Assembly: GCF_038022665.1 (NCBI RefSeq)
Contig: NZ_CP150629.1
Location: 1,842,480 to 1,906,479, forward strand
DNA from: Methanolobus sp. WCC4
GTDB lineage: Archaea; Halobacteriota; Methanosarcinia; Methanosarcinales; Methanosarcinaceae
Direction of reading: 5' to 3'
DNA length: 64,000 nt
Of the stretch, positions 2,217 to 43,439 are shown piece after piece. The first letter of the stretch is position 1, and each line of letters opens with the position of its first letter. Under the pieces are notes generated by a model that searched no databases, was not told where the DNA came from, and saw nothing but the letters and a program-made list of their open reading frames with translations. Both the position numbers and the translations under genes were made by a program.

Positions 2217-2444
2217 ATGATCCTTATACAAAGAAGATATCAGGAAGAGGCTGAAGAGATCGATGAGAAGGATATCGACCGTGTGAAACTGAACCTTGGG
2301 ATCACAAGGAAGGTCTGCTGCGGTGGGCGGGAGAAAAAGGACTATGACCTTGGATGGATCAAGAACCCAAAGGACATGAAGATAACCACTGTAAAGGATT
2401 ATGAGATAAAGGACAGGGTGCTTGAGGTCTGGATCGAACCGTGA
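2217..2444 (+). CDS. small conserved-looking hypothetical protein
   Basis: A 75-residue charged protein beginning MILIQRRYQEEAEE. I chose the ATG at 2217 because a GGGGAA stretch sits just upstream; an in-frame start at 2163 would add 18 residues with no clear ribosome-binding site. It contains a VCCGGREKKDYDLGW segment with two adjacent cysteines and no membrane segment or known domain. It follows lrgB by 70 nt on the same strand and could be cotranscribed. I do not recognise the family; codon use looks like real coding sequence. Confidence 0.6.
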   Translation: MILIQRRYQEEAEEIDEKDIDRVKLNLGITRKVCCGGREKKDYDLGWIKNPKDMKITTVKDYEIKDRVLEVWIEP

Positions 2445-3876: not shown

Positions 3877-3891
3877 GGCAGAGGTTAAGAT

Positions 3892-5923: not shown

Positions 5924-5935
5924 TCTCATCTTTTA

Positions 5936-17448: not shown

Positions 17449-18231
17449 ATGAAGGCCGAGTTGATAAGTACGGTGTTTCTGTCGGAAAAGAGAAAGCAGA
17501 CCCTCCTTATGTTAATGGATGGCCCGGCCACTGTTGACGAGATCAAGGATTCTCTTACAGGGACGACCAGTGCGATCATGGCCCAGGTGAAGATACTCTT
17601 CGAACAGGGACTCATCGAGCAGGAGGAGGACGAGTACAGGCTCACCTCTATTGGAAAGATGATCATGAAGAAGATCAAACCTCTTATCGAGGCCCTGAAC
17701 GTGGTTGAACAGAATAAGAGTTACTGGGATAGCAGGAACCTTGAGTCCATACCTGAATTCCTGCTTGACAGGATTGGGGACCTTGGTGATGTCATGGTAC
17801 ATGAGCCTGACCTGAACCACCTTTTCGAGCCACCTAAAGAGCTGCTTGCAAGTCTCCGTGAGACAGAGAATGCCTGTACCTTCTATTCATATTTCTGTCC
17901 GTCATGTCCTAACAATTACTCTGAACTTGCAAAGAAAGGGATCAACTACAACCTCATACTCACACGTCCGGTCTATGAAAGGCTGAGGGATGAATATAAG
18001 GAACAGCACGATGCCATGATGAAAGGGGAGAACTCTCACATGTATATCTGTGATGATGAGGATGTGAAGATAGGTGCCCTTTCGGTAACTGATGGCATGA
18101 TGCTTATAGCATTCTTCAACAAGGACGGCTCCTTCGACCACAAGAAGGTCATGAGTTTCAAGGAAAGTGCCCGCAACTGGGGACTTGATCTCTTCCAGCA
18201 TTTCAAGAAGAGATCAGAGAGGATAAAGTAG
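17449..18231 (+). CDS. HTH-FilR1 (DUF1724) regulator with CPSCP motif
   Basis: A 260-residue regulator: winged helix (residues 1-80, with TVFLSEKRKQTLLMLMDG and LFEQGLIEQEEDEYRLTSIG), then the FilR1-type middle domain with SYWDSRNLESIPEFLLDRIGDLGD and DLNHLFEPPKELL. It carries FYSYFCPSCPNNYSEL near residue 150, a CxxC-type motif shared with the paralog at 42388 but not with the pair at 8652 and 9514. The two cysteines could bind metal or sense redox state (inference). A GGGAGA ribosome-binding site precedes the ATG. It lies about 2.2 kb upstream of the promoter module at 20396 and is a candidate regulator of it. Confidence 0.9.
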   Translation: MKAELISTVFLSEKRKQTLLMLMDGPATVDEIKDSLTGTTSAIMAQVKILFEQGLIEQEEDEYRLTSIGKMIMKKIKPLIEALNVVEQNKSYWDSRNLESIPEFLLDRIGDLGDVMVHEPDLNHLFEPPKELLASLRETENACTFYSYFCPSCPNNYSELAKKGINYNLILTRPVYERLRDEYKEQHDAMMKGENSHMYICDDEDVKIGALSVTDGMMLIAFFNKDGSFDHKKVMSFKESARNWGLDLFQHFKKRSERIK

Positions 18232-20395: not shown

Positions 20396-20442
20396 TTGAT
20401 AATAAATCATTCGTTGATTAATTACTTGAAGTTATTATATAT
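20396..20442 (+). promoter_or_regulatory. shared methyltransferase promoter module, copy A
   Basis: TTGATAATA (20396-20404), 11 nt, GATTAATTACT (20416-20426), 2 nt, AAGTTATTATATAT (20429-20442), the last containing the TATA box. Aligned over 58 nt from 20387, it matches copy B (minus strand, 39135-39192) at 52 positions, with the same spacing in copy C (43369-43415). The likely start codon of the first gene is 149 nt downstream, so the leader is about 120 nt long. The conserved blocks upstream of TATA are probably activator sites. Confidence 0.75.
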
Positions 20443-20590
20443 AACTCCAGCTTGCTATTTCTCTTTAGGCAGTAATTGCGGACCTCGGTTCGTTCTACTG
20501 ACCATCAGTACTTAATTATTAAAAAGGCGGCAGGACGGAAATTATGTTTTCGTTGACTGTCGACCGAACAAGAACATGGGTGATCAAATC

Positions 20591-21703
20591 ATGCCAGCAA
20601 AAGATTACGCACCAATAGACCAAAATTGGCTCGAAGAAGCAGGAAGTTTGTGGACAACACCTTGGGTTGACAAGCCATCTGAAAGGGTTATCGTAGACCC
20701 GATCATCTTGTCCCATGCTGCAAGCTTGTTTAGGAAAAATGCAGGATACTTCTACCAGAATCCTGATGAAGCGATACGCATGGTATGCCATGCATGTGAA
20801 CTCTACGATGTCACTCCTGTAGGTCACTACCTGTATGCTGACTACTGGGGACAGGACTATGGAGCAGAGATCAAGGTCCAGACCAATTCTCCACCAGGTA
20901 TCACCAACCGTCCTATAAAGACAGCAGAGGACGTTGACAACTTCGAAGTACTTGAGACCGAAGACCTTGTCAAAGGACCTACACTCACAACACACTACAA
21001 GGCACTGGACACCTGTAAAGAGGAGTTCCCTCACATGTTCGCACCTATCACACAGTTAGGTGGAACAATGGAAGTAGCAACCAACTGGGCTGCCATCGAG
21101 GATGTCTTCATGTGGATGATCACAGAACCTGAGGTCGTTGACAAGCTCTGTAAAAAGGCCGGTGACCACATGGTGAACGCCTGTAAAGCAACATCTGATA
21201 GATACGGTGCAAATGTAATGATCACCGGATCTGTCATTGCCAGTGGTGATCTCATGGACACAGAACAGATCAAGAGGTTCAGTTTCCAGCCGGTTTCCCG
21301 CGCTGTCAGGAAGGTACTCAACGCAGGAGCAGGTCCTGGTGTATACTACCACCTCTGTGGAAACCACACCGATGACTACCAGATGTGGAAGAACGCTCCA
21401 ATGAGTCCATTCACCATCGTACAGATCGGATATGACGGACAGAACATCTTCCCGACAACCAAGCTCGTAGAAGCCTTTGGTGACAGATGTACCTGCTTCG
21501 GTACAGTTGACACAAAACTCGTTGACCGTGGAACCCCTGCACAGGTATACGAACAGGCAAAAGAGCAGGTAATTGCCGGAAAGGACAGTCCAAGAGGATT
21601 CATCCTCGGAACAGCATGTGAATGTCCGACCAACGCACCACCTGTGAACGTCCGTGCACTTGTAAAGGCTGCAAAGGACCACGGAAAGTATGAGAAGTTC
21701 TGA
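20591..21703 (+). CDS. UroD/MtaA-superfamily zinc methyltransferase, probably corrinoid-linked
   Basis: A 370-residue protein of the uroporphyrinogen-decarboxylase-like methyltransferase superfamily. H254 and C256 (in YYHLCGNH) and C343/C345 (in GTACECPTNAPP) match the zinc ligands that activate a thiol in MtaA/MtbA. The sequence is distant from the true MtaA-type protein at 36956 and has about 30 extra residues. Two starts are possible; I chose 20591 because GGGTGAT lies six nt ahead of it, whereas the ATG at 20576 has no ribosome-binding site. First gene of a five-gene operon with promoter copy A. It may transfer a methyl group between a corrinoid and a thiol, or demethylate a substrate; which is inferred. 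Confidence 0.85.
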   Translation: MPAKDYAPIDQNWLEEAGSLWTTPWVDKPSERVIVDPIILSHAASLFRKNAGYFYQNPDEAIRMVCHACELYDVTPVGHYLYADYWGQDYGAEIKVQTNSPPGITNRPIKTAEDVDNFEVLETEDLVKGPTLTTHYKALDTCKEEFPHMFAPITQLGGTMEVATNWAAIEDVFMWMITEPEVVDKLCKKAGDHMVNACKATSDRYGANVMITGSVIASGDLMDTEQIKRFSFQPVSRAVRKVLNAGAGPGVYYHLCGNHTDDYQMWKNAPMSPFTIVQIGYDGQNIFPTTKLVEAFGDRCTCFGTVDTKLVDRGTPAQVYEQAKEQVIAGKDSPRGFILGTACECPTNAPPVNVRALVKAAKDHGKYEKF

Positions 21704-21749
21704 GGACGGGAATCACAACAAATAAACAATGATCAAGGAGTGTTTCAAA

Positions 21750-22208
21750 ATGGATATCAAGATAACTGAAGAACTTGACAACACACTGAAAGACAATGGT
21801 TTCAAGCAGGAAGAGATCCTGGATCTCATCGAGAGTGCAGAGTCCAGTGGTACAAAGCTCAAGGCCAGAGAAGGTGACATCGCAATTGCAAAGGGCGGTT
21901 CTGACAACCTTACCGTCTACGCAGTATATTCACCTGACGAACTCTTAGACGTGTATGCCCACAAAATGAATATTCTCGGTCTCACAGGCGGAGAGCTCAG
22001 CGAGATCGACTATGACGATGCAAGCGACTGGGCATGTGCAAAGTGCGGTGAGATCGCACTGGAGAGGAATGTGGACATGACATATATGGGTGTCACAAGA
22101 CCGGGACCCGGACTTGTATGTCCTAAATGTGATGAATTCTACGTATCCGATGGTGTGGCAAAGACACTGAAGACCGCAGAAGCGATCCTGGAAGAGAAGA
22201 GAGCTTAA
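21750..22208 (+). CDS. rubredoxin-like redox protein (DVU_1557-like) with N-terminal extra domain
   Basis: A 152-residue protein. C96/C99 (CAKCGE) and C124/C127 (CPKCDEFYVSDG) form a two-CxxC knuckle like rubredoxin or a zinc ribbon, spaced by VDMTYMGVTRPGPGLV. The C-terminal block, CAKCG-x-TYMG-x-CPKC-x-FYV-x-AEAILEEK, resembles what I recall of the bacterial DVU_1557 family of redox proteins. The first 90 residues are a separate acidic domain (EEILDLIESAESSGTKL to VYAHKMNILGL). The ATG at 21750 follows AAGGAG; an earlier ATG at 21729 has none. It may deliver electrons to the radical SAM enzyme downstream (inference). Confidence 0.78.
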   Translation: MDIKITEELDNTLKDNGFKQEEILDLIESAESSGTKLKAREGDIAIAKGGSDNLTVYAVYSPDELLDVYAHKMNILGLTGGELSEIDYDDASDWACAKCGEIALERNVDMTYMGVTRPGPGLVCPKCDEFYVSDGVAKTLKTAEAILEEKRA

Positions 22209-22221
22209 ATTGTAACCCAAG

Positions 22222-22238
22222 TCTCAGGATCCCTGAGA
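22222..22238 (+). promoter_or_regulatory. intercistronic hairpin TCTCAGG-ATC-CCTGAGA
   Basis: A perfect seven-bp stem between the redox protein and the radical SAM gene, ending 28 nt before the latter's start. There is no T-run, so it is more likely an mRNA processing or stability element than a terminator. Confidence 0.5.
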
Positions 22239-22265
22239 TAAATACCACCTTTGAGAGGGATAAAA

Positions 22266-23717
22266 ATGGAACCGATCGAAAAAGTACAGAGCCTGTGTCC
22301 GGAGTGTCTTGAAAGGATCGAAGGCACAAAATATGTTGAAGATGGCAAGGTCTACATCATGAAGAAATGTGAAGACCACGGCAACTTCATAAGCCTTATT
22401 TCTGAAGATATCGAGCACTATCGTCTGATGGAGGAATGCTTCGATGTTGACAGGGCGAAGGCCAGAGCGCCTTTAACGGATACACAAAGAGGATGTCCTT
22501 TCGATTGCGGCCTGTGTCCCTCTCACAAACAGGATACCTGCCTGGCAGTGGTCGAGGTCACTGACAGGTGTAATATGAAATGTACCTATTGTTTTGCAAA
22601 TTCATCAATGGACGAAAGCCTTGATCCAGATATGGATACTATCAGGCTCATGTTCGAGACCGTAAAGAAATGCCAGAACGAACCCACATGCATACAGATC
22701 TCCGGCGGTGAACCAACCCTGAGGAACGACCTCCCCGAGATTATCAAAATGGGAAAGGAAATTGGCATCAGCCATATCGAACTGAACACCAATGGTGTCA
22801 GGATAGCAAGTGACCAGAAATATTTCGACAAAATAGCTGCTGCCGGAATAGATGCAGTCTATCTCGGATTCGACGGAATTTCTGACGAGGTCTACATGCA
22901 GAGGACCGGAAGGAAAATGCTCGATGTGAAGAAAGAGGTCATAAACAGGTGTGAGAAGGCCGGCATCGGTGTTGTGCTCGTTCCACTGGTGGCCAAAGGT
23001 TACAACCTGCATGAGGTCGGCGGGATAATCGACTTTGCTGCAAGCAGGGTCCCGGCAGTCAGAGGTGTTCACTTCCAGCCTGTATTCCATTCAGGAAGGT
23101 CTCCATCGGACAGGACTGACAAGGTGACCATACTGGAGCTTCTCAAGGAGATCGAGAAGCAGACAGAAGGTCAGCTTAAGGTCAGTAATTTCACACCATC
23201 ACTTATGCCACATGCACATTGCGGAGCCACCTGTCTCACACTTATCGACAACGGAGGATACCTGCCGCTGACAAACGTTTCCATGGGTGCTGTGAAGTCC
23301 GCTTCTGATGTGGCAAGTAAGACAAAGAAGTCCATCATGGGAAGATGGAAAGGTCTTGAGAAAGAAAAGGAATCAAAGCCGGCATCATCATGTGGTGATC
23401 TGCTGATCAAAGGCTCTTGTTGTGAAAAGCCTCTCAGCGACCTGACCGTGAAAGGTTCATGCTGCGAGAAACCAATAACTGATGTCCTCTCCAAGTCAAA
23501 ACCCAGTCTGGGTGGATGGGCTGATTTCATTGAGATGAGCATGAACAATTACCTGACCATTTCAACCATGGCATTCCAGGATGTCTGGTCATATGAACAG
23601 GACCGTGTGGAGAACTGCTGCATACATGTTGTCACACGTGACGGACGATTCGTCCCGTTCTGTAATTATAATATGACTGACTGCAACGGCAACTTCCTCT
23701 ACAGGGATGCTGCCTGA
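22266..23717 (+). CDS. multi-cysteine radical SAM enzyme, TrsS/Tes-like
   Basis: A 483-residue radical SAM protein. The N-terminal knuckle has C11/C14 (LCPECLERI) and C35, then GCPFDCGLCPSHKQDTC (C77, C81, C84, C92). The SAM cluster motif is CNMKCTYCF (C102, C106, C109), followed by QISGGEPTLRND. Near residues 375-410 are two CCEKP repeats (SCGDLLIKGSCCEKPL, then TVKGSCCEKP), and the end has ENCCIHV and FVPFCNYN. The layout matches the family I know as TrsS (often a selenoprotein) and, more distantly, the tetraether synthase Tes. The ATG at 22266 follows GAGAGGGA. The substrate is unknown. Confidence 0.87.
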   Translation: MEPIEKVQSLCPECLERIEGTKYVEDGKVYIMKKCEDHGNFISLISEDIEHYRLMEECFDVDRAKARAPLTDTQRGCPFDCGLCPSHKQDTCLAVVEVTDRCNMKCTYCFANSSMDESLDPDMDTIRLMFETVKKCQNEPTCIQISGGEPTLRNDLPEIIKMGKEIGISHIELNTNGVRIASDQKYFDKIAAAGIDAVYLGFDGISDEVYMQRTGRKMLDVKKEVINRCEKAGIGVVLVPLVAKGYNLHEVGGIIDFAASRVPAVRGVHFQPVFHSGRSPSDRTDKVTILELLKEIEKQTEGQLKVSNFTPSLMPHAHCGATCLTLIDNGGYLPLTNVSMGAVKSASDVASKTKKSIMGRWKGLEKEKESKPASSCGDLLIKGSCCEKPLSDLTVKGSCCEKPITDVLSKSKPSLGGWADFIEMSMNNYLTISTMAFQDVWSYEQDRVENCCIHVVTRDGRFVPFCNYNMTDCNGNFLYRDAA

Positions 23718-23828
23718 TCCACCCGGATCATTCGTTTTATTTTAGTTTTTATTTTCTTTTTATTTTTGATCATCACATTATATTTCAGGAACAGGACAGG
23801 ATGTCCAACAATACACAGGAGGAGAAGA

Positions 23829-24968
23829 ATGAGTCTTTGTACAAAGCTGAACACGTCTGTTCGTATGACCGTGGCAAAAAGGAAACTCGATTCCAGAAAA
23901 TTAAGTATCCAGCAAGGTAATCCGCTTGAACAGTGGGGTCTTGGGAAGATAAGGAACGATATCAGGAAGAACAAGGTAATGAGCAACTATTTTGGCAGCG
24001 AGGAACTCGACAGGGAGTCTGTCAAAGATTACAAGCTCTTCAAGTTCAGGGAACTTCTTGCATATGTGCTGGAGAACAGTCCATACTACCAGGACCTTTA
24101 TGCGAATGCGGGCATTGATATTTCGGAGATAACCAGCTATGAGGACCTTGAAAAACTCCCTCTGACCGAGCAGAAGGAACTTGCAAACAAACCCTATCAC
24201 TTCCTCTGTGTGCCAAGAAAGGATATCATCCGTGAGTTCACAAGTTCCGGTACCACTAAAATGCTCAAAAGGATGGCATACACACAGGATGAACTGCTGG
24301 AGATCGTCGATTCCGTTATATCCGGCCTGAAGATGGCTGGCATGGATTCAAAGGATGATGTCCTGCAGATAATGTACCCCACCATAACTGCAACCTGGGA
24401 CCCGGGACTGGTCCTGAGCAAGGCATGTGCCCTCGGAGGTTTCAATTCAGTGATAGAGGATTCCCTTGATGCTGAAGAACAGATAAAGACCATGCAGGAA
24501 TCCGGTACAACTTTCATAATCGGAACTTCATCTTTCCTCTATGACCTTTCAAAACAGGTAAGCAGTCTCATTGAACCGGGAGAACTGGGTATCAAGAGGA
24601 TAATATGCTCATCCGAGCCCCTGACAGAGGATATGAGGGAAGAGATCGAGAGCGTGTGGGGATGCAAGGCTCTGCGCCAGTGGGGAATGACTGAACTTGG
24701 TCTGGCCAATGCCATTGAGTGCGAGCAGCAGAACGGTTTTCACCTTAACAACCCTGATTTTCTTGTGGAGGTCATCGACCCGAAGACAGGCAAGGTCTTA
24801 CCGGCAGGTGAGAAGGGTGAGCTTGTGGTCACCACCCTGCGAAGGAAGTGCATGCCTCTTATCCGTTACAGGACACGGGATATCACCTCTATCATCGATG
24901 AACCATGTCTTTGCGGAGCTTGCCTGGACCAGAGGATAAGCGACATTGAAAGGTGGACAGGTGAATGA
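23829..24968 (+). CDS. AMP-dependent CoA ligase-like protein (PaaK/DVU_1553-like), C-terminally short
   Basis: A 379-residue ANL-superfamily protein related to phenylacetate-CoA ligase. It has FTSSGTTKMLKRM (phosphate loop), RQWGMTELGLANAIECE (the TE motif), and RYRTRDITSII followed by PCLCGACLDQRISDIERWTGE, where it stops. In PaaK about 90 further residues form the mobile C-terminal domain with the catalytic lysine; here it is absent. It would still bind ATP and a carboxylate and could make an acyl-adenylate. The start at 23829 follows AGGAGGAG; the conserved part begins near residue 52. It follows the radical SAM gene in the operon and resembles the DVU_1553 family often found near TrsS. 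Confidence 0.82.
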   Translation: MSLCTKLNTSVRMTVAKRKLDSRKLSIQQGNPLEQWGLGKIRNDIRKNKVMSNYFGSEELDRESVKDYKLFKFRELLAYVLENSPYYQDLYANAGIDISEITSYEDLEKLPLTEQKELANKPYHFLCVPRKDIIREFTSSGTTKMLKRMAYTQDELLEIVDSVISGLKMAGMDSKDDVLQIMYPTITATWDPGLVLSKACALGGFNSVIEDSLDAEEQIKTMQESGTTFIIGTSSFLYDLSKQVSSLIEPGELGIKRIICSSEPLTEDMREEIESVWGCKALRQWGMTELGLANAIECEQQNGFHLNNPDFLVEVIDPKTGKVLPAGEKGELVVTTLRRKCMPLIRYRTRDITSIIDEPCLCGACLDQRISDIERWTGE

Positions 24969-24977
24969 GGTAAGAGC

Positions 24978-25691
24978 ATGTCCTATCCGCTCCGGAAATA
25001 TATGGCCGAGTTCGTGGGAACCTTCACACTGGTTTTCATAGCAGCGGGTTCCAATGCCATTGACCATCTCTCACATGGGATACTGGGTCTGACAGGTATG
25101 GCGATAGCCACCGGAGCCACCGTCATGGTGCTGATATATGCCCTCGGCCATATTTCAGGAGCCCACATCAACCCTGTTGTTACGATTGCCATGGCCGTGA
25201 CAGGAAAGATGGATTTCAGGGATTCTTTTGCCTACATCATATCACAGGTATCAGGAGCCTGTGCTGCAAGTATCCTGCTCCTGGAACTCTTCCCCTCTAC
25301 AGTGAGCAGTGTGAACCTCGGTGCCACAAGCCTTGGAGTGGGCATCGCACCTGGAACGGGGATACTCATTGAGGCAATCCTCACTTTTCTGCTCGTCTTT
25401 GTCATTTTCGGCGTTGCGGTTGACACCCGTTCCCCACCGGGTCTGGCAGGTTTTGCCATAGGTGCCTTTGTCCTTATTGCCATCATTATCGGGGGACCGA
25501 TAACCGGTGCTTCCATGAACCCCGCAAGGTCATTCGGTCCAGCTCTTATCGCAGGCTACTGGACAGATCATCTGGTCTACTGGATCGGTCCGATAATCGG
25601 CGGTGTCGTTGCGGCTTTGTTCTATGATAATGTGTTCATTCGGGATGATGTGTTCGAGGATCATGTGGATGCTGTCGGTGATGGGGTTTGA
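24978..25691 (+). CDS. aquaporin/glycerol facilitator (MIP family)
   Basis: A 237-residue MIP channel with six membrane segments. The first half-helix has SGAHINPVVT (NPV instead of NPA), the second GASMNPARSFGPAL (NPA, with the selectivity-filter Arg right after). MIP channels pass water, glycerol, H2S, ammonia or similar small neutral molecules. It starts nine nt after the CoA-ligase stop and ends the operon, so it may bring in or release a small neutral substrate or product of the pathway (inference). Altered first motifs occur in several divergent MIPs and may widen the pore. Confidence 0.92.
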   Translation: MSYPLRKYMAEFVGTFTLVFIAAGSNAIDHLSHGILGLTGMAIATGATVMVLIYALGHISGAHINPVVTIAMAVTGKMDFRDSFAYIISQVSGACAASILLLELFPSTVSSVNLGATSLGVGIAPGTGILIEAILTFLLVFVIFGVAVDTRSPPGLAGFAIGAFVLIAIIIGGPITGASMNPARSFGPALIAGYWTDHLVYWIGPIIGGVVAALFYDNVFIRDDVFEDHVDAVGDGV

Positions 25692-26551: not shown

Positions 26552-26553
26552 CA

Positions 26554-28410: not shown

Positions 28411-28491
28411 TTCGAAATGGGAAAACCCGGGATGTTCCCTGCAAAAACTAGAAATCAGATGTACACGGATTTCATTAACAGAGGTGTTCCA

Positions 28492-32676: not shown

Positions 32677-33474
32677 TCACCCCTCACTCCGATACCTGCA
32701 ATCACTGTCACATTCCTTATTGTACTGGGTATACTCACACCTGGCATTGAAATCAGCCTTCTCATACCAGCTGAGGTCGAACATATCGGAGAGGTACTTC
32801 ATTCCTTCTTCAAGTGAGATACGGGTCGATTTCTTACAGCATCTGGCTCCACCAGCATCGGCTATGCATTTAAGGGTACAGGCAGTAGCCCAGTTGGCAT
32901 GTGCTCTTTCCGCGGGTGTGAGGGGTGTGGCTTCCAGCAGCACGCACATTGCAATACCCACTCCTATTCCAGCAGCACATGCTCCATAAAGACCACAGTA
33001 GCCACCGGGAACCATGCTTCCACGTCTCATTGCTTCCACGATCGGTCTCTTGTCAGTATTCCCTGTATAGTTCTGGTAGGCAGCAACAAGGACCGCAGGG
33101 ATAAGAGCATGATGTTCCGGTCCATGCATATGGATACTGGGATGCTCCATAATGATCTCCGCAATGGTCAGCGGGTCAGCGATTTCCGTCGTCTTGCAGA
33201 TATTCTCAATAACGTCAATGGCATCTTTGGAATGACATCTGTTACATACATAATGTTCTTCCTTGCACACGAAGTATGTTTTTTCCTCTACTTCGCAGTA
33301 ATGACATGTGGCATTCACAGGCTCGCTCAGGTAATCCACTTCGGCACCGCAGACAAGACAATCGGTCTTACAACCGCTCTTTCCACCCATATTCGAAACC
33401 TGTATCACAGGAACATGAGTGCCCTTCATCCCACAGACATCGTTCTTTTCATTTTCCTTATATACAATATTCAT
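32677..33474 (-). CDS. DUF5714 protein with zinc-finger-like cysteines
   Basis: A 265-residue soluble protein. The N-terminal part has CLVCGAEVDYL, ATCHYCEVEEKTYFVCKEEHYVCNRCH (CxxC pairs of a zinc knuckle). A glycine-rich helical part follows (GSMVPGGYCGLYGACAAGIGVGIAMCVLLEATPLTPAERAHAN split over helices near residues 160-205), then GGARCCKKSTRISLEEG and a cysteine-rich end. This is the DUF5714 pattern, which I recall as often next to or fused with SAM methyltransferases. It is the last gene of an operon with SDR, ALDH and a membrane protein. The start at 33474 follows GAGGTGA. Confidence 0.82.
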   Translation of the reverse strand: MNIVYKENEKNDVCGMKGTHVPVIQVSNMGGKSGCKTDCLVCGAEVDYLSEPVNATCHYCEVEEKTYFVCKEEHYVCNRCHSKDAIDVIENICKTTEIADPLTIAEIIMEHPSIHMHGPEHHALIPAVLVAAYQNYTGNTDKRPIVEAMRRGSMVPGGYCGLYGACAAGIGVGIAMCVLLEATPLTPAERAHANWATACTLKCIADAGGARCCKKSTRISLEEGMKYLSDMFDLSWYEKADFNARCEYTQYNKECDSDCRYRSEG

Positions 33475-33504
33475 TCTTATCACCTCAAATACATCACAAA
33501 TACA

Positions 33505-34395
33505 TCATTGATCAGCTCCCTTTTCAGGTGAGCAGATGAACATCTCCTTTGGAAGACCCCCGGCGGTCTCCCTCAGTTCTGAACGTGACAACCTCATCAG
33601 CCAGCTTACAGGCAGACGGCAGGCAATGTGATGCAGCAGACCAAGTCCTCTGCCGGGTATCACCACATCCCTGTCACATTGAAGTGCACGCCAGGTATCA
33701 CGTGCAACAACGCTGGCATTCACCGACATCCATGAACGGAATGCTCTTGTGTGTTCCATCCCTGCTGCCGTCCTGAATCCCGTATCCTTCACAGCGGTCG
33801 GACAGACGGCCATCACCCTCACATTCAGTCCCTTCTCCTTCAATTCGTAGTTCAATGCCCTGCTGAAGTTCAGCACAAAACTCTTGCTGGCGCCATAAGT
33901 GGCAAAATACGGATTCGGCTGGAAGGCCGATATCGAGGATACATTGATTATCCTTCCTTCATTTCGCTCCACCATCTCCTTCAGGTAGAGCCGTGTCATC
34001 CGGTAGAGTGTGATAACATGCAGTTGCAGCATGTCAAGTTCCCTCTCCTCGTCGATCTCATTGACAAAACCATATGTCCCGAAACCCGCACAGTTTACAA
34101 GTACATCGATCATCAGTGAGTGTTCACGGGTGAATTCACGAACCTTAGTTGCAGCATCCGGTTCAGAAAGATCCTGTTCCAGCAGGAAAATGCGCATATT
34201 CAGGTTGATACACTGTAAGGGGTCCCTGACCTGTTTCAAATCCTCTTTATTCCTGTCAACCAGCACAAGGTCGTAACCATCCCTGGCAAAGAGCTTTGCG
34301 AGTTCCTGACCGATACCTCCTGCTCCCCCGGTTATGAGGACTGTCTTCCTGCACTTTCCAGCGATATGGTCTGTGTTACTGTTATTTTGCCCCAT
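33505..34395 (-). CDS. short-chain dehydrogenase/reductase (DltE-like)
   Basis: A 296-residue classical SDR: TVLITGGAGGIGQELAKLFA (nucleotide loop) near residue 21, VLVNCAGFGTYG (NAG-type) near residue 100, the catalytic Ser in IINVSSISAFQ, and YGASKSFV (YxxxK). The long C-terminal tail, with RALQCDRDVVIPGRGLGLLHHIACRLP, fits the group often annotated as DltE or acyl-reductase-like. I chose the ATG at 34395, which follows AGGTGG and lies 2 nt after the aldehyde dehydrogenase stop. It and the ALDH may act on the same aldehyde/alcohol (inference). Confidence 0.9.
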   Translation of the reverse strand: MGQNNSNTDHIAGKCRKTVLITGGAGGIGQELAKLFARDGYDLVLVDRNKEDLKQVRDPLQCINLNMRIFLLEQDLSEPDAATKVREFTREHSLMIDVLVNCAGFGTYGFVNEIDEERELDMLQLHVITLYRMTRLYLKEMVERNEGRIINVSSISAFQPNPYFATYGASKSFVLNFSRALNYELKEKGLNVRVMAVCPTAVKDTGFRTAAGMEHTRAFRSWMSVNASVVARDTWRALQCDRDVVIPGRGLGLLHHIACRLPVSWLMRLSRSELRETAGGLPKEMFICSPEKGADQ

Positions 34396-34397
34396 GC

Positions 34398-35807
34398 TCA
34401 CATCCACCTGTACAATGCTTTTACCATCCACAATACACGGTCGCTGTATGGAGGATAGATAATATCCAGCGAACCCCACTTACGGTGGATTACACTTCGT
34501 TTGTTAGAGAATTCCATGAAGCAATGGAAACCAAGCGACTTACCCATACCACTGTTATTCACCCCTCCAAAGGGCAGGTTCGGGTTGCTGTAACCGAGCA
34601 TGTAGTCATTGATGACGGTCCCGCCGGCAGGAATCCCGTCCATGAAATATCGGATGTTCTTCCTGTCGTTACTGGCTATATAGAGCATCAGCGGATTCGG
34701 ATGCCTTCGTATGATATCCTTGACCTCTGACCTGTCACTGTAGGTAATAACTGGAAGCAAGGGTCCGAATATCTCTTCCTGCATGATATTCATATCCTCG
34801 GAGATATTGTCCAGTAGTGTAGGTGGGATGAACAGGTCATCCTCTTCGAAGTTCCCTCCTGTAAGCAGGCTGGCACCCCTGTCCAGTGCATCCTGGTACA
34901 GGGAGCTAAGTCTCAGAAAATGATGGTGATTTATGATCCTGCAGTAATCAGGTGAGCTTTCCGTACCCCTGCCGGACCTGTTGTAGAGTTCTGTGACCGC
35001 TGACCTGAACTCTTCGATGAACTCTCTCTTTTTAGAATCGTGAATGATAACATAGTCTGGTGTCACACAGGTCTGACCGCAGTTGATCGATTTTGCCCAT
35101 GCCAGTCTTCTTGCAATACGTTGGATATTAGCGGTCTCATCTATGATGGCAGGTGACTTCCCTCCAAGTTCCAGGGTCACACTGGTAAGATGCTCTGCAG
35201 CTTTTCCCATGACTATCTTCCCGACACGAGGACTGCCTGTGAAGAATATGTGGTCGAAGGGCAGTTCCAGCAGCTTCGTTGCCACTGTTGCATCACCTTC
35301 TACAACAGCTACCTCGTTCACTTTGAACAGTTCGCTTATCATCTTTTTGATATAGGCTGAAGTATGGGAGGAGATCTCACTGGGTTTCAGTATAACAGCA
35401 TTGCCTGCTGCTATGGCGTAGACCAGAGGTACAAGGGAGAGGTTGAGAGGAAAGTTCCACGGAGACATAATGAGAACCACTCCCTTTGGATCATAGCGTA
35501 TATAGGACCGGGTACCGAGCAATGGCAACGGTGTGGAGACCCGGTGGTCCCGGTCCCATTTATGCAGATTCTTTTTCAGATAGGATATCTGGGCCTGGAT
35601 AACGCCCACTTCTGTTGCTATGACCTCTACCTCTGGTTTTCGCAGATCATTGTAAAGTGCCTCGTAAAGCTCCTGCAGGTTATGTTCATCCTTAAGATAA
35701 TTATCGATACGAAGCACACGCTCAAGCCTTTCTTTTACATCAAGTGCTCCCGGTCCGGAAGCCTCTTCTTTCTGTGATGCGAATATGGTTCTGATGTCAG
35801 GCTGCAT
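34398..35807 (-). CDS. class-3 aldehyde dehydrogenase
   Basis: A 469-residue NAD(P)-dependent aldehyde dehydrogenase of the short class-3/AlkH type. VLIMSPWNFPLNLSL near 110, GNAVILKPSEISSHT near 133, the general-base Glu in VTLELGGKSPAII, and the nucleophile Cys in NCGQTCVTPDY are all visible. The end has FGGVNNSGMGKSLGFHCFMEFSNKR. It oxidises a medium- or long-chain aldehyde to the acid, or works in reverse in acyl metabolism. The operon context (membrane protein, SDR, DUF5714) suggests lipid or terpenoid aldehydes, which is inference. An in-frame GTG lies 12 nt earlier. Confidence 0.93.
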   Translation of the reverse strand: MQPDIRTIFASQKEEASGPGALDVKERLERVLRIDNYLKDEHNLQELYEALYNDLRKPEVEVIATEVGVIQAQISYLKKNLHKWDRDHRVSTPLPLLGTRSYIRYDPKGVVLIMSPWNFPLNLSLVPLVYAIAAGNAVILKPSEISSHTSAYIKKMISELFKVNEVAVVEGDATVATKLLELPFDHIFFTGSPRVGKIVMGKAAEHLTSVTLELGGKSPAIIDETANIQRIARRLAWAKSINCGQTCVTPDYVIIHDSKKREFIEEFRSAVTELYNRSGRGTESSPDYCRIINHHHFLRLSSLYQDALDRGASLLTGGNFEEDDLFIPPTLLDNISEDMNIMQEEIFGPLLPVITYSDRSEVKDIIRRHPNPLMLYIASNDRKNIRYFMDGIPAGGTVINDYMLGYSNPNLPFGGVNNSGMGKSLGFHCFMEFSNKRSVIHRKWGSLDIIYPPYSDRVLWMVKALYRWM

Positions 35808-35843
35808 GGCGTGTATCACTTCGTTCTGTTGTTCATTCGTATC

Positions 35844-36746
35844 TTAAACTGAGATGAATCCAAGTAAGAGGAATATGTAGAAGGTAGTAAGGACGGATCC
35901 GGCAACAACTTCCTTTGTATTCCTTGATATGGTCCCTTTTGAGAATCCATCGATCGTCAGGCATACCCAGAGCAGGAACACATATCCGGCCATCAGGGAT
36001 ATGAGCGAGAATTCCGGGTGGGACCATGTACCCAGGATCTCTCCCGTAAGCTCTGTGAGGACTGTGAAGAAAGCAACGAAATATGCAAGTCTTATTCCCT
36101 GGAAGTTCCTGAAGAGCATGAATGCAAGTGTGAACTTCATCAGTATACTGATCGGTTTCAGGGACAGATCGAACACCATGTGATCAATTGCTATCAATAC
36201 GGCAAGACTGACCGGGATAAGGATATTCGTCAGGCTGAACCATTTTTTTTCAGAATAGTCCTTCTCGAAGATCTCCCACAGGTTATAGGATGACCAGAAT
36301 ATCGTCCCATATCCCGGGATCAGCCATATTGGGGATCCGCCTATAAATCCTCCAAGGTAGGTGAAATACCCGTATCTGACACCAAGGAGCTCATGGACAT
36401 AACCGAACACCGATGCGATCACGAGGAAGATCCTGCCCTTCTGGTCTGTGTTCTTCCAGAAGAGTATCCATAGCAATGATAGCACTGCCATTGGCAGGAA
36501 CTCATCAACGGTAGTCCTGTAGTATATCAGGACACCGAATATGGTCGAGAGCATGAATATGAAGAAATAATGGGGAGTATTGAGAAGGATCCTGCTCTTC
36601 TCTTCAAGTGAGACCTTCATATCTCCAAGTTGCAGAGGATTTCGAAGGCTCTGTGTATCTAAGAATACCTTTAATTGAGATATCATGTCGATCACTACAT
36701 TTTTTATGGATTGTGAGGGAATTAGAGTTACATCTCCTGTTTTCAA
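35844..36746 (-). CDS. polytopic membrane protein with GYVHELLG motif
   Basis: A 300-residue protein with about eight membrane segments and a cytoplasmic-looking N-terminus of about 50 residues. The most distinctive part is GYVHELLGVRYGYFTYLGGF followed by SPIWLIPGYGTIFWSSYNLWEIF. This recalls the carotenoid-synthase-like CruF/DUF422 membrane enzymes in layout but is not a sure match. The later IAIDHMVFDLSLKPIS could hold further active residues. First gene of the four-gene minus-strand operon. Possibly a lipid or isoprenoid enzyme. Confidence 0.62.
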   Translation of the reverse strand: MKTGDVTLIPSQSIKNVVIDMISQLKVFLDTQSLRNPLQLGDMKVSLEEKSRILLNTPHYFFIFMLSTIFGVLIYYRTTVDEFLPMAVLSLLWILFWKNTDQKGRIFLVIASVFGYVHELLGVRYGYFTYLGGFIGGSPIWLIPGYGTIFWSSYNLWEIFEKDYSEKKWFSLTNILIPVSLAVLIAIDHMVFDLSLKPISILMKFTLAFMLFRNFQGIRLAYFVAFFTVLTELTGEILGTWSHPEFSLISLMAGYVFLLWVCLTIDGFSKGTISRNTKEVVAGSVLTTFYIFLLLGFISV

Positions 36747-36955: not shown

Positions 36956-37975
36956 TCAATACTTGTGGCCTTTGACCATTTCGACCATTGCCTGCAGATT
37001 GGCATTCGGGGTCTTACTGACGATACCGCATCCCGGTCCGAGAAGTCCCACTCCTGCCTCCAGTATTCCCTGTGAGACATCTTTGATCTCTTCAGGTGAC
37101 ATTTTCCACAGGGCACTTACAGGATCGAGGTTACCAACGATAACCGCCTTATCCGCCTTGCTTAAAGCGGTAGCAACGTCAACGTTCTGGTCCACACTGA
37201 TGGCGTCCACTCCTGAGGATTCCATAAGTCCGAGACTTGGTGTAGTATCACCACATATGTGCAATACTGTTGCAACGTTCAGCTCATGCATTGCATCGAC
37301 TATTTTCTTGTGTGCAGGTACGACGAACTTCTGGTAGAACTCGTCACCGATGAGCATTGCACTTGCTGTAGGGTCGATGATCACCATGGTGTCTGCTCCG
37401 TTCTCGACCATCTTCTTTGCATATTCGATGTTGAACTGGGTGGTAAGCTCCATAAGAGCGAATCCGAATTCCTCATCTGTCATAATGGCCATGAACCAGT
37501 CGTCACCGTTCATGTGCTGTGCAAGGGAGAAAGGACCGAGCATGCTGCCCATTATCGGCAGTTCTTCGCCGTATTTCTCTGCAAGGATCTTGATCGCTTC
37601 ACATACAACGCCGATCCTTCCCTGACTGATATCATAGTCTTTGAGTTTCTCGATGTCCTCTGTGGAGCTGACCACATGGCCGACCACTGAAGGCTGCTGT
37701 TCTTTAGTACCATCTTTTATCTCGCATCCGAAGAACTCGGCCTCTGCTGTGATATCAAAAGGAACACGAACTGCTTCAAGACCAATGACGGTGTGACCTG
37801 CTTCTGCAAGTGTTGCCATCTTCTGCGCATCATTGTTTGCTTCCGGCCAGAAGGCACCACAGGCTTCCATCTGCTCTACGGTTCCTGTCTGTGTTACTGA
37901 GATCGCTGGCATCCTGTCAACTGCTTCTCCTCTTAATGCACGTGCCAGTCTCTCTTTAGGTGTGTATTCATCCAT
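36956..37975 (-). CDS. methylcobamide:coenzyme M methyltransferase, MtaA/MtbA type
   Basis: A 339-residue zinc methyltransferase of the UroD superfamily, at the exact family length. H239 and C241 (VLHICGDTT) and C316 (GPGCGIV) are the known zinc ligands that activate coenzyme M thiol. It moves a methyl group from a methylated corrinoid protein to coenzyme M, giving methyl-CoM for methanogenesis. The start follows CAGGAG. The gene lies 348 nt downstream of the corrinoid protein gene on the same strand and is probably cotranscribed or separately expressed from the same locus. Whether it serves methanol, methylamine or another donor cannot be told here. Confidence 0.93.
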
Positions 37976-38323: not shown

Positions 38324-38989
38324 TTAGCTCCACCTTTCAGGTGCAAGAGCTGCTGCTGCTTCCTGTGCCCATCTTGCAGCTTCCATGGCATCGGTCTTTG
38401 TTGCATCTGCACCGATCTCAACTGCAAAGTCTGCTGTGATAGGTGCACCGCCGATGATGACCTTCAGGTTGTCCCTGATGCCCTTGCTCTCAAGACTGTC
38501 CATGACTCTCTGCATGTTGTCCATTGTGGATGTCATGAGTGTGCTCATGGATACGATGTCTGCCTTGTGCTCAGCAGCAGCTTCTGCGAACTGCTCAACA
38601 GGTACGTCCTTTCCAAGGTCGACAGCTTCAAAACCAACAGCGCTCATCATTGTCTTGACGAGGTTCTTACCGATGTCATGTACATCTCCTTCCACACTGC
38701 CGATGATAAGGACCTTCCTTGCACCGTCGCCTTCGCTCTTGATGTGTGGTATGAGTATGTCCATACCTCCGTACATTGCATTGGAAGCCATCAGGAGATG
38801 TGGCATGAATGCCTGCTTCTGCTCATATCTCTCGCTCATGATCTCCATGCCCTTTGCAAGACCATTTATCACTGCAATGTAAGGGTCAATGCCCTCGTCC
38901 AGTGCCTTCTGTGACAATTCGATTGCCTGGTCTTTCTTTCCGTTAACAACTGCATCTGTAAGTCCGTTGATGATCTCATTTTCTTCCAT
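38324..38989 (-). CDS. methanogenesis corrinoid protein (MtaC/MtbC/MttC/MtmC-type)
   Basis: A 221-residue two-domain corrinoid protein. The helical cap is residues 1-90 (MGxx region GLAKGMEIMSERYEQKQAFMPHLLMASNAM), and the B12-binding Rossmann domain follows, with D102-x-H104-x-x-G107 (EGDVHDIGKN) providing the lower histidine ligand, SMSTLMTSTM and IIGGAPITADFAVEIGAD. It carries the methyl group between a substrate methyltransferase and an MtaA-type enzyme. The ATG at 38989 follows GGAGGT; the longer frame from 39055 lacks this. Promoter copy B lies 148 nt upstream. No substrate-specific methyltransferase gene is adjacent, which is unusual. Confidence 0.93.
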   Translation of the reverse strand: MEENEIINGLTDAVVNGKKDQAIELSQKALDEGIDPYIAVINGLAKGMEIMSERYEQKQAFMPHLLMASNAMYGGMDILIPHIKSEGDGARKVLIIGSVEGDVHDIGKNLVKTMMSAVGFEAVDLGKDVPVEQFAEAAAEHKADIVSMSTLMTSTMDNMQRVMDSLESKGIRDNLKVIIGGAPITADFAVEIGADATKTDAMEAARWAQEAAAALAPERWS

Positions 38990-39136
38990 AGAATACCTCC
39001 GATATCTTGTCAACATCCAGGAACTGGACCGTTCTGTTCTCATATTCCTGAACATTGGTTCGTTAATGATTTCTTATGCCAACAGAACAGACACTGGATC
39101 TGTAATAGTTGACAATTCACCATTGCCCCTATGAAT

Positions 39137-39183
39137 ATATATAATAACTTCCAGTAATTAATCAACAGATTACTTATTATCAA
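39137..39183 (-). promoter_or_regulatory. shared methyltransferase promoter module, copy B
   Basis: Read on the minus strand: TTGATAATA, 11 nt, GATTAATTACT, GG, AAGTTATTATATAT. The wider 58-nt block (39135-39192) matches copy A at 52 positions, including ten bases further upstream. The corrinoid-protein start codon is 148 nt downstream, almost the same as in copy A. A small ATATTC-A-GAATAT palindrome lies just upstream (39195-39207). Confidence 0.75.
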
Positions 39184-39404: not shown

Positions 39405-41573
39405 TCAGATATTCCTTGCTATCTCGTTAGCCCCTGTGATAGCTTCCCATACCCTGCCTGGTTCGCTTGCATCACCCACACAATATATCTCAGGTGCAGC
39501 ATCCGCTTTTAGCAGTTCATAGTAAAGCTTATCGTCCGCCTGTCCTCCAGTGGCGAATATCACAAGGTCAGTATGGATGACGATCTCCTCGACATCGTCA
39601 GGGTCGGTCTTCTTTTCAAAAGGGTTCCTTACATTCTCAGGGATCAGTGGCTTCCAGGGTGTATAAGGGTCCTTTCTCCCCCTGTTAGCCTTGATATGGA
39701 CCTGGCCATCTGAAAAGCGTACTATCTCTGAGAAATTATACACTCTGACAGGTTGCTGAAGAGCATCTTCCTCTTTTCCGGAAGGCGACCCTTTCCCCAT
39801 CATCATCCACAACATCTGTGCCCGATTGGCATGGGTGGTCTCCGGCATCAGTTCCTTATTTCTTCCAATAATAGTGACATTGCTTCCTTTTTCACGGGCA
39901 AGTGAATAGGCGATCTCACATCCGAGCATCCCGCCACCTACCACTATTATATCTTTAGCATCTGCAGGTAGTTCCATATCACTGTTCAGGAATTCCCTTG
40001 CTTCGATGTGTTTTATAGCTTCGATCCCTTCTATGTCAGGTGATCTGGTCCTGAGGCCGTTACAGCAGATTATGACATCATACTCTCCGTCAATCTCATC
40101 GGTCCTGATCTCCCTTTCTAACTCTACCTTCAGCCCTTTCTTCTCCATAAGCCTGACCTGGTACTGCAGGTTTTCGAGATATCTTCTGATATCATGCTTT
40201 ATTGTCATCTTACCGGCAGTGAACAATTGTCCACCTATCCTGTCGGTCTTTTCAAAGAGAGTGACATCATGTCCTCTTTTGCAGGCTGTCATAGCTGCTT
40301 CACAACCGGCAGGTCCGGCTCCGATGACAGCTATCTTCCTTATAGTATCTGTCCTGACCAGTTTCTTAGTATCCTCAAAACCGGTGTAAGGGTTCACTGA
40401 GCAACAGGGATGTCCTCCTTTTTTGAACGATTCCATACATCCCTCGTGATCGCCTATACAATGGATGATCTCCTTTGCCCTGTTCTGCTTTACCTTGACA
40501 GGCCAGTATGGGTCGGCCAGTAGTGGTCTTCCAAGCATTACAAAGTCTGCCCATCCCTGACCAAGCACTTCTTCTGCAACCTCAGGTTTTCCGAGTTTGC
40601 CCACAGCTATCACTTTTGCACCGATGTTCTCCTGCCTGAAGAACTCCTTCAGCCTGCCAGCCATCTCCTTCGCATAGATCGCATCATCGAAATAGGATGG
40701 AGGATGCGGCCAGAACCAGTTATCGTAGCAACCCCTGTCGACATCGAAAGCATCCACTCCTGCCTCATGGAGAGCCTTGCAGAACTGTAATCCCTCTTCT
40801 ATCGTCCGTTCCTTTCCATGAAAACGTTTCCTGAATACCGTATCCCCGTAACTTTCCTGCAACGCCTGTGTCAGGTCCAGTCTGTATATAACGGGAAAAT
40901 CCTCTCCACAGCGTTCCTTTATCTCCCTGACAACGTCGATACCGAACTGGAACTTGTTCCTGTACCTGCCGAAGCTCCTGCGGTTCCAGGGTGCGGAGGT
41001 CAACTGGTCCATCAGGTATCCTTCATGGCCGTGCAGGTGGACCCCATCGAATCCTGACATCTTTGCATTGGCTGCACTCTGTCCCATCATTTTGATGATC
41101 TTCCTGATCTTACGGTCCGAAAGGGGAAGATGTGGTACCTGGGGTATGTAGAAGTTCCTGTTCCAGGAGGCGGATCTTAATATCTTACCTTTCAATGCAG
41201 GTTCAGGAGATCCGACCCTTCCAAGACCGGGGGATAGCTGGATAAAGATCCTGGCTCCATAGGGTCTTACGGCTGCTGTGAGATCCCTCCATCCGCTGAG
41301 TCTTGTTCTTGAAGAACCATCGATACGCGGGAAATATGTAGTGTTATTCTCTTCGTAAAGACAGGGGTCGATCCCATAGGACACCGGGACAAGGCCCGTT
41401 ATGAGCAGACCTGCACCTCCTTTTGCCCTTTCTTTGAAGTATTCTATCATCTTATCAAGAGGGCGGCCGGTAGGATCTGCCATGTTGATATTTCCGATAG
41501 GTGCCATTATGATCCTATTCTTGAGATGGCATTTTCCAATGTATGATGGCTCGAACAATCTCCGGAATTCCAT
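39405..41573 (-). CDS. Old-Yellow-Enzyme-like NADH:flavin oxidoreductase / dienoyl-CoA reductase family
   Basis: A 722-residue protein with an FMN TIM-barrel (LFEPSYIGKCHLKNRIIMAPIG at the start, FDGVHLHGHEGYLMDQL near 175), an iron-sulfur segment, and a C-terminal FAD/NAD(P) domain (IAVIGAGPAGCEAAMTAC near 405, IIVVGGGMLGCEIAYSL near 545). The cluster segment reads CIGDHEGC, then HPCCSVNP near residue 370-388. The usual second cysteine of the C-x2-C-x3-C-x11-C motif is Asp, and an extra Cys sits beside the last. It is related to trimethylamine dehydrogenase and enoate reductases. The start follows GAGG. It is near the corrinoid genes but has its own upstream region. Confidence 0.88.
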   Translation of the reverse strand: MEFRRLFEPSYIGKCHLKNRIIMAPIGNINMADPTGRPLDKMIEYFKERAKGGAGLLITGLVPVSYGIDPCLYEENNTTYFPRIDGSSRTRLSGWRDLTAAVRPYGARIFIQLSPGLGRVGSPEPALKGKILRSASWNRNFYIPQVPHLPLSDRKIRKIIKMMGQSAANAKMSGFDGVHLHGHEGYLMDQLTSAPWNRRSFGRYRNKFQFGIDVVREIKERCGEDFPVIYRLDLTQALQESYGDTVFRKRFHGKERTIEEGLQFCKALHEAGVDAFDVDRGCYDNWFWPHPPSYFDDAIYAKEMAGRLKEFFRQENIGAKVIAVGKLGKPEVAEEVLGQGWADFVMLGRPLLADPYWPVKVKQNRAKEIIHCIGDHEGCMESFKKGGHPCCSVNPYTGFEDTKKLVRTDTIRKIAVIGAGPAGCEAAMTACKRGHDVTLFEKTDRIGGQLFTAGKMTIKHDIRRYLENLQYQVRLMEKKGLKVELEREIRTDEIDGEYDVIICCNGLRTRSPDIEGIEAIKHIEAREFLNSDMELPADAKDIIVVGGGMLGCEIAYSLAREKGSNVTIIGRNKELMPETTHANRAQMLWMMMGKGSPSGKEEDALQQPVRVYNFSEIVRFSDGQVHIKANRGRKDPYTPWKPLIPENVRNPFEKKTDPDDVEEIVIHTDLVIFATGGQADDKLYYELLKADAAPEIYCVGDASEPGRVWEAITGANEIARNI

Positions 41574-41914
41574 GTTCCATCCTCACAAAAGACCTGCTCT
41601 CATTTTTAAGACACCATTTTTGATCGTTGCGGTTTTAGAATAGTAATGCACGATGGTTCTGCATAGTGCATTTAGTTCTTTTCAGATATGTCCTGTATAC
41701 AGGTTAGATATCTTCCGGCATTTTTATAATGCAAAATATGCGCGTAACCGACTATTATATCTGATCCTTTTGTTATGATCAAGGCTTCGATCCAATCAAC
41801 GTCTTTGTTTTTTTGTCGGTCACGGATTTCTTAGACCTATTTGATTTTCCAGTATAATTCGTTATATATAGACAAGAACTCAAAATCATGTATGGCAGTC
41901 AATAGGTGAAAGAG
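41574..41914. other. divergent promoter region
   Basis: About 340 nt between the flavin reductase (minus) and the zinc-ribbon gene (plus). TATA-like elements are GCATTATAAAAATG on the minus strand (near 41727-41740) and GTTATATATAGAC on the plus strand near 41861. The shared methyltransferase module is not present here. No gene was seen. Confidence 0.45.
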
Positions 41915-42256
41915 ATGTCAGACGAAAAAAGATTTATCGATGATCTGAGGCGCGATGAAAGGTATTCTTTCGAGTTGCAAAGGAAAGGTGTCAACAAGAG
42001 CTTCTATGATGCGAACAGGATGTTACATTGTCCCGAATGTGGTACAACCTTCAATCTGTTCTACTCAAGGGCAAAACTATGTGCAGGATGTCCGAGTCTG
42101 GTCAGGGGCTGTGAACTTGCCAGATGTACCCACTGTCATACGGAATTCCCGCTGAATAATTTCATGTCAAAGCGTTCTTCACGGGTGACCTCTAATTATA
42201 TCGAGTCGGTTATCAAGCGATATCACGACACCTTTGGAGAAAGACCGGGGCAGTAA
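41915..42256 (+). CDS. small cysteine-rich zinc-ribbon-like protein
   Basis: A 113-residue protein with CPECGTTFNLF near residue 38, CAGCPSLVRGCELARCTHCHTEF near residues 58-80 (six or seven cysteines, at least one zinc or iron-sulfur site), and a basic helical tail. The ATG at 41915 follows AGGTGA. It is encoded just before the regulator and ramA on the same strand. I do not recognise a named family. It may be a redox or metal-binding partner of the corrinoid system (inference). Confidence 0.68.
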   Translation: MSDEKRFIDDLRRDERYSFELQRKGVNKSFYDANRMLHCPECGTTFNLFYSRAKLCAGCPSLVRGCELARCTHCHTEFPLNNFMSKRSSRVTSNYIESVIKRYHDTFGERPGQ

Positions 42257-42387
42257 GATCGTATCGGTCCGATCTTATATGCAGGTGGTAAAAATGTGTG
42301 TTCTGTGTCAGTATTCTAGCATTTACGGGTCAGTTGTGTTCGGCAGGACAGGCAGATCCCATTAAATCAAGGGCAGGTGAGTTGATC

Positions 42388-43368: not shown

Positions 43369-43415
43369 TTGATAATATTCGGCCCATGGATTCATTACTA
43401 CAAGTTATTATATAT
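43369..43415 (+). promoter_or_regulatory. shared methyltransferase promoter module, copy C
   Basis: TTGATAATA (43369-43377), 11 nt, GATTCATTACT (43389-43399), 2 nt, AAGTTATTATATAT (43402-43415). All three conserved blocks and both spacers are the same as in copies A and B; the spacer sequence differs. It points toward ramA, but the ramA start is 491 nt away, so either the leader is very long or a small RNA is made first. Confidence 0.65.
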
Positions 43416-43439
43416 CCTTTAACCCGTTACTTGGAATTG

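Follow-up and report, generated by a model that had tools for sequence, protein, structure and literature searches.

We analysed a 64-kb window (the whole stretch of DNA under study, part of the closed 2.85-Mb genome G000 of Methanolobus sp. WCC4) that contains a putative five-gene operon at positions 20591-25691, in which a methyltransferase of the UroD superfamily is encoded next to proteins akin to the bacterial Trs set. As a sequence-only reading of this DNA had proposed, five open reading frames (ORFs) lie there on the plus strand:

20591..21703, plus strand: UroD-superfamily methyltransferase, 370 residues (PF01208), with a zinc-type H254-x-C256...C343 motif
21750..22208, plus strand: small protein, the C-terminal domain of NF045663 fused to a DVU_1557/DUF7479 domain, with two CxxC pairs
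22266..23717, plus strand: TrsS-like radical S-adenosylmethionine (SAM) enzyme, 483 residues, CxxxCxxC at 102-109, assigned by profile scores
23829..24968, plus strand: PaaK/DVU_1553-like AMP-forming ligase, 379 residues, lacking the C-terminal lid
24978..25691, plus strand: aquaporin (MIP), an optional member

The intergenic gaps measure 46, 57, 111 and 9 bp, sizes that make the five ORFs consistent with a single operon. The start of the first gene was set at 20591 by a ribosome site, GGGTGAT...ATGCCAGCA, which is kept in an alignment of the window with 22 upstream regions from relatives (one genome being represented twice).

The first protein, hereafter UroD, matched PF01208 (UROD) with 124 bits and MtaA/CmuA (TIGR01463) with 78.4 bits, under the curated cut-off of 235. 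Its HxC...C pattern aligns with the zinc motif of MtaA, an enzyme in which zinc activates a thiol. H254-x-C256 and C343 were invariant in 15 divergent orthologues, in agreement with the zinc/corrinoid methyltransferase proposed earlier, and the solved fold closest to the predicted structure was that of MtaA (4ay7/4ay8; TM score 0.74-0.80 with 4ay8). The zinc site of UroD is probably of the thiol (MtaA) type.

The radical SAM enzyme, the ligase and the small protein had been likened to the TrsS, DVU_1553 and DVU_1557 families. Profile searches returned the first two families as best matches, and all three scores were slightly under the cut-offs: 482.4 bits for the radical SAM protein with TrsS (NF045646; cut-off 490), 268.5 bits for the ligase with the DVU_1553 CoA ligase (NF045666; cut-off 300) and 34.2 bits for the small protein of 152 residues with DVU_1557 (NF045645; cut-off 60). 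The kinship held and strict membership was not supported; the three proteins are best described as homologues just under the curated thresholds. The TrsS threshold itself was passed by orthologues from Methanomassiliicoccales (516-544 bits) and from one Methanolobus (493 bits). The radical SAM cysteines C102, C106 and C109 were invariant in 21 sequences; two genomes (G380 and G388) encode a TrsS that lacks the auxiliary CxxxCGxC motif. The TrsS of Methanosarcinaceae carries a variable insert (window 23358-23501, residues about 365-412) with one to three SCCEKP-like motifs, which is predicted to be disordered and is absent from all other TrsS examined. The ligase ends near the point at which PaaK-type enzymes continue into their C-terminal lid domain.

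The small protein had been called rubredoxin-like. A DVU_1557-type domain is indeed present (Pfam DUF7479, 58.8 bits; gathering threshold 27), but it is preceded by a match to the last 80 residues of NF045663, so that two domains found as separate proteins in bacteria are fused in the window protein. Both CxxC pairs of the window protein, a candidate redox or metal site, are absent in the orthologue of locus L108 and mostly lost in those of L186; as these cysteines are not universal, we rejected the protein as an obligatory redox carrier. Because these cysteines and the auxiliary motif of TrsS are lost in some orthologues, no uniform redox mechanism can be assumed.

The closest solved fold to the predicted TrsS-like structure was tetraether lipid synthase (Tes, 7tol), with 33% identity over the fold, which raises the alternative that the enzyme is Tes and the remaining genes are coincidental. 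However, the TrsS model is ahead of the Tes model by 98 bits (Tes, NF045702: 384.4 bits, under its cut-off of 450), and an unrooted tree of 76 sequences resolved three groups, namely bacterial TrsS (1.0), Tes-like proteins and an archaeal UroD-linked group (0.948), which places the enzyme in a clade apart from Tes. Moreover, true Tes-like paralogues coexist with it in many relatives, and its linkage to UroD is strict. On scores, clade and linkage we rejected a Tes identity, which we regard as very improbable. We also rejected a methanopterin C-methylase, the pterin role that MJ0619 presumably has, as the gene is absent from most methanopterin-bearing relatives.

Next, we surveyed 112 genomes of the Methanosarcinaceae (many of the genomes in this study are metagenome-assembled genomes, MAGs) and scored as TrsS-positive those in which a TrsS-like gene exceeded 440 bits or was cut off by a contig end. 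The gene was found in 25 of the 112; among 295 Halobacteriota genomes, none above 440 bits was detected outside the family. Its distribution is patchy within genera: it occurs in 17 of 27 Methanolobus genomes and in a single one of the nine from a genus inferred to be Methanohalophilus. So uneven a presence is more readily explained by an accessory pathway than by a core cofactor. Carriers of the island include M. vulcani, M. bombayensis and M. profundi; in the family survey Methanosarcina acetivorans was among the genomes that lack it. Orthologues of UroD (73-100% identity) were confined to the TrsS-bearing genomes; of the remaining UroD-like proteins in the family, the closest has 28% identity. 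The order UroD-small protein-TrsS-ligase was kept in every complete relative locus (23 examined), so the scattering in relatives that would have told against the sequence-only reading was looked for and not seen. The aquaporin (178.9 bits with the MIP channel profile; cut-off 171) accompanies them in 11 of the 23 loci; it had been counted among the operon genes, and we rejected it as a core member.

The operon shares a promoter element with two genes elsewhere in the window:

20416..20443, plus strand: promoter element GATTAATTACN4AGTTATTATATATA before UroD, with a TATA-like box at its 3' end (exact match)
39136..39163, minus strand: the same element before a corrinoid-protein gene (exact match)
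43389..43416, plus strand: the same element with 2 mismatches before RamA

The distance from the element to the likely start codon is nearly equal (about 147 bp) at UroD and at the corrinoid gene, and 100 shuffles gave 0 occurrences of the element. It is kept upstream of UroD in 18 other genomes. A matrix trained on the UroD promoters with the window left out, which matches at UroD itself by construction, also gave matches elsewhere: among the other genomes, 11 had one at the corrinoid gene and 8 had one at RamA (weak in a single case). The promoter common to the operon and the corrinoid gene, already suspected from the sequence, is thus an exact element at both places that recurs in relatives.

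The corrinoid and RamA genes belong to a larger island at ~32-48 kb, listed here together with the regulator gene that adjoins the operon:

17449..18231, plus strand: FilR1-type regulator adjoining the operon (PF08350, 118 bits), kept nearby in most relatives
32677..33483, minus strand: DUF5714 protein akin to the N-terminal portion of MbdU, linked in Methanolobus, Methanomethylovorans and Methanococcoides
33505..34479, minus strand: short-chain dehydrogenase (SDR), linked
34398..35819, minus strand: aldehyde dehydrogenase, linked
35844..36746, minus strand: membrane protein with no assigned family, linked
36956..37975, minus strand: MtbA methylcobamide:coenzyme M methyltransferase (NF041608, 643.6 bits; cut-off 600)
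38324..38989, minus strand: corrinoid protein, MtbC/MttC/MtgC-like (TIGR02370, 200.8 bits; B12-binding Pfam domains)
39405..41573, minus strand: OYE/BaiCD-type flavoenzyme, its occurrence tied to TrsS in the family
41906..42256, plus strand: cysteine-rich zinc-ribbon-like protein of no named family, a core cassette member in other archaea
42298..43170, plus strand: second FilR1-type regulator
43906..45549, plus strand: RamA/RACo-type corrinoid activase (PF14574, 210 bits)

A sensor kinase is also encoded on the plus strand of the island, after the zinc-ribbon protein, the FilR1-type regulator and RamA. Much of the block adjoins the operon in Methanolobus and in a genome (G065) that we take to be Methanomethylovorans hollandica, and it is partly kept in Methanococcoides and Methanosalsum (G073, presumably Methanosalsum zhilinae). 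The zinc-ribbon and OYE genes, which are separate transcription units, were each present in 25 of 25 TrsS-positive genomes and in 1 of the 87 others; the lone carrier without TrsS is a 72%-complete MAG (G072). The five-gene operon appears to be one half of a larger set that is jointly inherited and jointly regulated. The corrinoid protein is likely the partner of UroD. A scan of genes in the 17-18 kb and 31-48 kb regions turned up no first methyltransferase of the MttB or MtaB type near the corrinoid gene. The island is flanked by the two FilR1-type regulators, which closely resemble each other. A conserved palindrome, TTGATAnTATCAA, occurs upstream of both UroD and the corrinoid gene and may be where these regulators bind. 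Elsewhere in the window, a KefF/KefG-like and Kef-type antiporter pair (25943-28410) adjoins a protein (28417-29127) in which we saw CDGSH-like iron-sulfur motifs by eye.

According to a scan of named genomes, Methanomassiliicoccales, Nitrososphaeria and Hadesarchaea also carry the cassette, with 35-45% identity. In profile searches, more than 20 Methanomassiliicoccales loci had UroD, the small protein and TrsS side by side or almost so. The zinc-ribbon gene is usually present as well, DUF169 often, along with a full-length ligase within a few kb. Many of these loci (L096-L113) have genes for PcrB (GGGP synthase) and a UbiA-type prenyltransferase to the right of the Trs ligase; PcrB, UbiA, RadA and a ZnuABC-like transporter were rejected as cassette members and probably reflect local synteny of related Methanomassiliicoccales genomes, although PcrB and UbiA may point to a link with lipids. 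In two McrA-positive Thermoproteota (G380 and G388) the cassette genes include a corrinoid protein 47-48% identical to that of the window. In locus L186, from a McrA-positive Thermoproteota genome, the corrinoid orthologue lies directly upstream of UroD, with MtbA-like and zinc-ribbon genes alongside; here TrsS adjoins a CobW/UreG-like GTPase, recognised by eye (4900-5934). Among Thermoplasmatota, McrA was found in 11 of 12 TrsS-positive genomes versus 21 of 231 others. One cassette-bearing Nitrososphaeria genome (G113), which we infer to be a methanogenic Ca. Methylarchaeales (PMC9478090), also has McrA. In locus L107 a second operon beside the cassette (about 1170-5302) encodes a corrinoid protein, another MtaA/CmuA-like UroD protein, a paralogue of the zinc-ribbon protein and a caprolactamase/acetophenone-carboxylase-like protein, which suggests that the zinc-ribbon family may partner UroD-type methyltransferases generally.

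This distribution also bears on whether the genes are chance neighbours without a common function. Such an explanation is refuted by synteny and we give it practically no weight: the order is kept across remote lineages at 35-45% identity, and separate transcription units match the operon in occurrence.

Taken together, our results make it quite probable that these genes form a co-regulated methyl-transfer module. The argument for a joint module lies in the promoter element common to UroD, the corrinoid gene and, more weakly, RamA, and in the inheritance of the operon with the zinc-ribbon and OYE genes. It is strengthened by the recurrence of the cassette in remote and mostly McrA-positive archaeal lineages, by the corrinoid gene directly upstream of UroD in McrA-positive Thermoproteota, and by the FilR1-type regulators at both ends of the island. 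That UroD acts directly with the corrinoid protein at 38324..38989 seems somewhat likely; methyl exchange between the corrinoid protein and a sulfur atom is the simplest model in view of the zinc-thiol motif, the known corrinoid roles of the UroD superfamily and the shared promoter. The fuller proposal is our favoured reading, held at a little short of an even call: methanogens living on methylated compounds would possess an accessory module for corrinoid methyl transfer, and the operon would make up the half of it that handles the substrate. A catabolic direction in which the ligase and TrsS act on the substrate is put forward tentatively, as something we would not yet expect.

In the mechanism that we envisage, UroD would move a methyl group between the corrinoid cobalt and a sulfur atom by means of its zinc-thiolate site; most likely, it would take the methyl group off a substrate that carries it on sulfur or at another place. 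MtbA would pass the methyl group to coenzyme M, and RamA would keep the corrinoid reduced, as Co(I). In the two least supported steps, the lid-less ligase might adenylate a carboxyl group of the substrate or of its demethylated remainder, and TrsS might carry out radical chemistry on the activated molecule. Because the lid needed for usual thioester formation is missing, the ligase may stop at the adenylate or use a partner.

Several observations weigh against this proposal. The link between the cassette and methanogenesis is strong but not absolute, since McrA was not detected in the Hadesarchaea genome G116 and in several cassette-bearing MAGs. Apart from L107, where one lies near the cassette, the Methanomassiliicoccales and Nitrososphaeria loci have no adjoining corrinoid gene. 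The co-occurrence of the zinc-ribbon and OYE genes with TrsS (Fisher p about 4e-24) is uncorrected for relatedness. MtbA is already encoded, so UroD could be redundant or biosynthetic. To our knowledge, no described methyltransferase system makes use of TrsS, the ligase, DUF169 or the zinc-ribbon proteins. Finally, the bacterial Trs loci adjoin molybdenum aldehyde oxidoreductase genes and not methylotrophy genes.

In bacteria, TrsS was present in 83 of 120 genomes of the class that contains Desulfovibrio. The clustered loci (n=21) comprise an aldehyde oxidoreductase, NF045663, a small DVU_1557-like protein, TrsM-type and DVU_1555-type proteins, TrsS, the ligase and an XdhC-type factor; the family names were taken from two of the 21 loci, and TrsM (NF045667) was identified in the one fully annotated locus. 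UroD was found in none of the 21 and was rejected as part of the bacterial loci. Because of this absence, the earlier description of UroD taking the place of TrsM is a fair one, although the two may not act in the same direction. The archaeal aldehyde dehydrogenase and the bacterial aldehyde oxidoreductase both make acids, a possible common thread. Flavobacteriia and relatives (L115-L156) carry a TrsS/Tes-like radical SAM protein of about 32% identity, and in the loci checked none of the genes near it proved homologous to those of the remaining cassette proteins. Our literature search found no paper on the function of DVU1553-1557.

Two other explanations were considered. The Trs proteins might be maturation factors that modify a protein or metal centre, the client being aldehyde oxidoreductase in Desulfovibrio and a corrinoid methyltransferase or its partner in archaea. 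The XdhC-type maturation factor and the aldehyde oxidoreductase of the bacterial loci would fit such a role, as would the cysteine-rich ribbon protein and the small adapter-like protein of the archaeal set. However, we found no client enzyme common to the two sets, the ligase and UroD look like small-molecule enzymes, and some orthologues of the small protein have lost its cysteines; we consider maturation improbable. The other explanation is biosynthesis. Tes, which belongs to the same superfamily as TrsS and is the closest to it among solved structures, acts on unactivated carbons. TrsS could likewise act at an unactivated carbon, for example placing sulfur there, and the product (a cofactor, or else a lipid or tetrapyrrole in modified form) would then be methylated by TrsM in bacteria or by UroD with methyl-corrinoid in archaea. 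The thiol-type zinc site of UroD, the SAM methyltransferase in the equivalent bacterial place and the prenyl-lipid genes near the cassette in Methanomassiliicoccales are in line with this route. Yet the patchiness within genera and the promoter common to the corrinoid protein and its activase suit a substrate pathway better, and no product is known that is common to Desulfovibrio and methanogens. Biosynthesis is in our judgement unlikely.

Returning to the methyl-transfer module, its broadest form would be a new route of methyl use in remote methylotrophic methanogens: a carboxylic and probably S-methylated compound would be activated by the ligase and opened by the radical SAM enzyme, UroD would hand the methyl group to a dedicated corrinoid protein for methane, and bacteria would process a molecule of this kind through their Trs set, with the SAM-dependent TrsM. 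As a whole this picture is rather doubtful. The bacterial Trs genes have only been named; archaeal counterparts that share a promoter and their inheritance with a corrinoid-protein gene offer a clue open to experiment. Should the substrate of the module be a methylated compound, further precursors of methane would join those known. Methanolobus makes methane from dimethyl sulfide without MtsAB, for which a new sulfur-specific methyltransferase was left open (PMC10762971), and the module bears on this question. Since Methanolobus grows in pure culture, induction and in vitro assays are feasible.

When compared with known systems, the module differs from each of them. The methylcobamide:coenzyme M methyltransferases MtaA and MtbA have the fold and the HxC...C zinc motif of UroD. 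UroD nevertheless scores 78 bits against the 235-bit cut-off, and the region has a separate gene for a canonical MtbA, so we rejected UroD as a plain duplicate of MtaA or MtbA. Tes (MJ0619, PDB 7tol) has the fold, the N-terminal ribbon and the radical SAM and additional cysteine motifs in common with the TrsS-like enzyme, but forms a separate clade, while the TrsS-like enzyme is linked to UroD and the ligase and scores higher with the TrsS model. UroD-superfamily enzymes act as first methyltransferases in corrinoid systems and include many uncharacterised clades (PMC13222342, PMC8630106). The MtoB/MtoC, MtvB, OdmB, CdmB and CmuA systems combine, as here, a UroD-type methyltransferase, a corrinoid protein, a second methyltransferase and an ATP-dependent activase (PMC8630106, PMC13222342). 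As in a UroD-type corrinoid system, a likely cognate corrinoid protein is co-regulated with UroD here and co-encoded in L186. Unlike the window, these systems as described have no radical SAM enzyme or CoA ligase, and the zinc motif of the window UroD is of the thiol (MtaA) type, which sets it apart from theirs. MtsA is a related enzyme of the MtaA type. The bacterial Trs set (TrsS NF045646, TrsM NF045667, DVU_1553, DVU_1555, DVU_1557, NF045663) was named by NCBI, with Haft and Tolstoy 2025 cited in the review PMC13188914. It has in one operon, as in archaea, the homologous radical SAM enzyme, the short AMP ligase and the small DVU_1557-type protein. TrsM, DVU_1555, most of NF045663, XdhC and the aldehyde oxidoreductase are, as far as annotated, not at the archaeal loci, which add UroD, the zinc-ribbon protein, often DUF169, and the co-regulated corrinoid protein.

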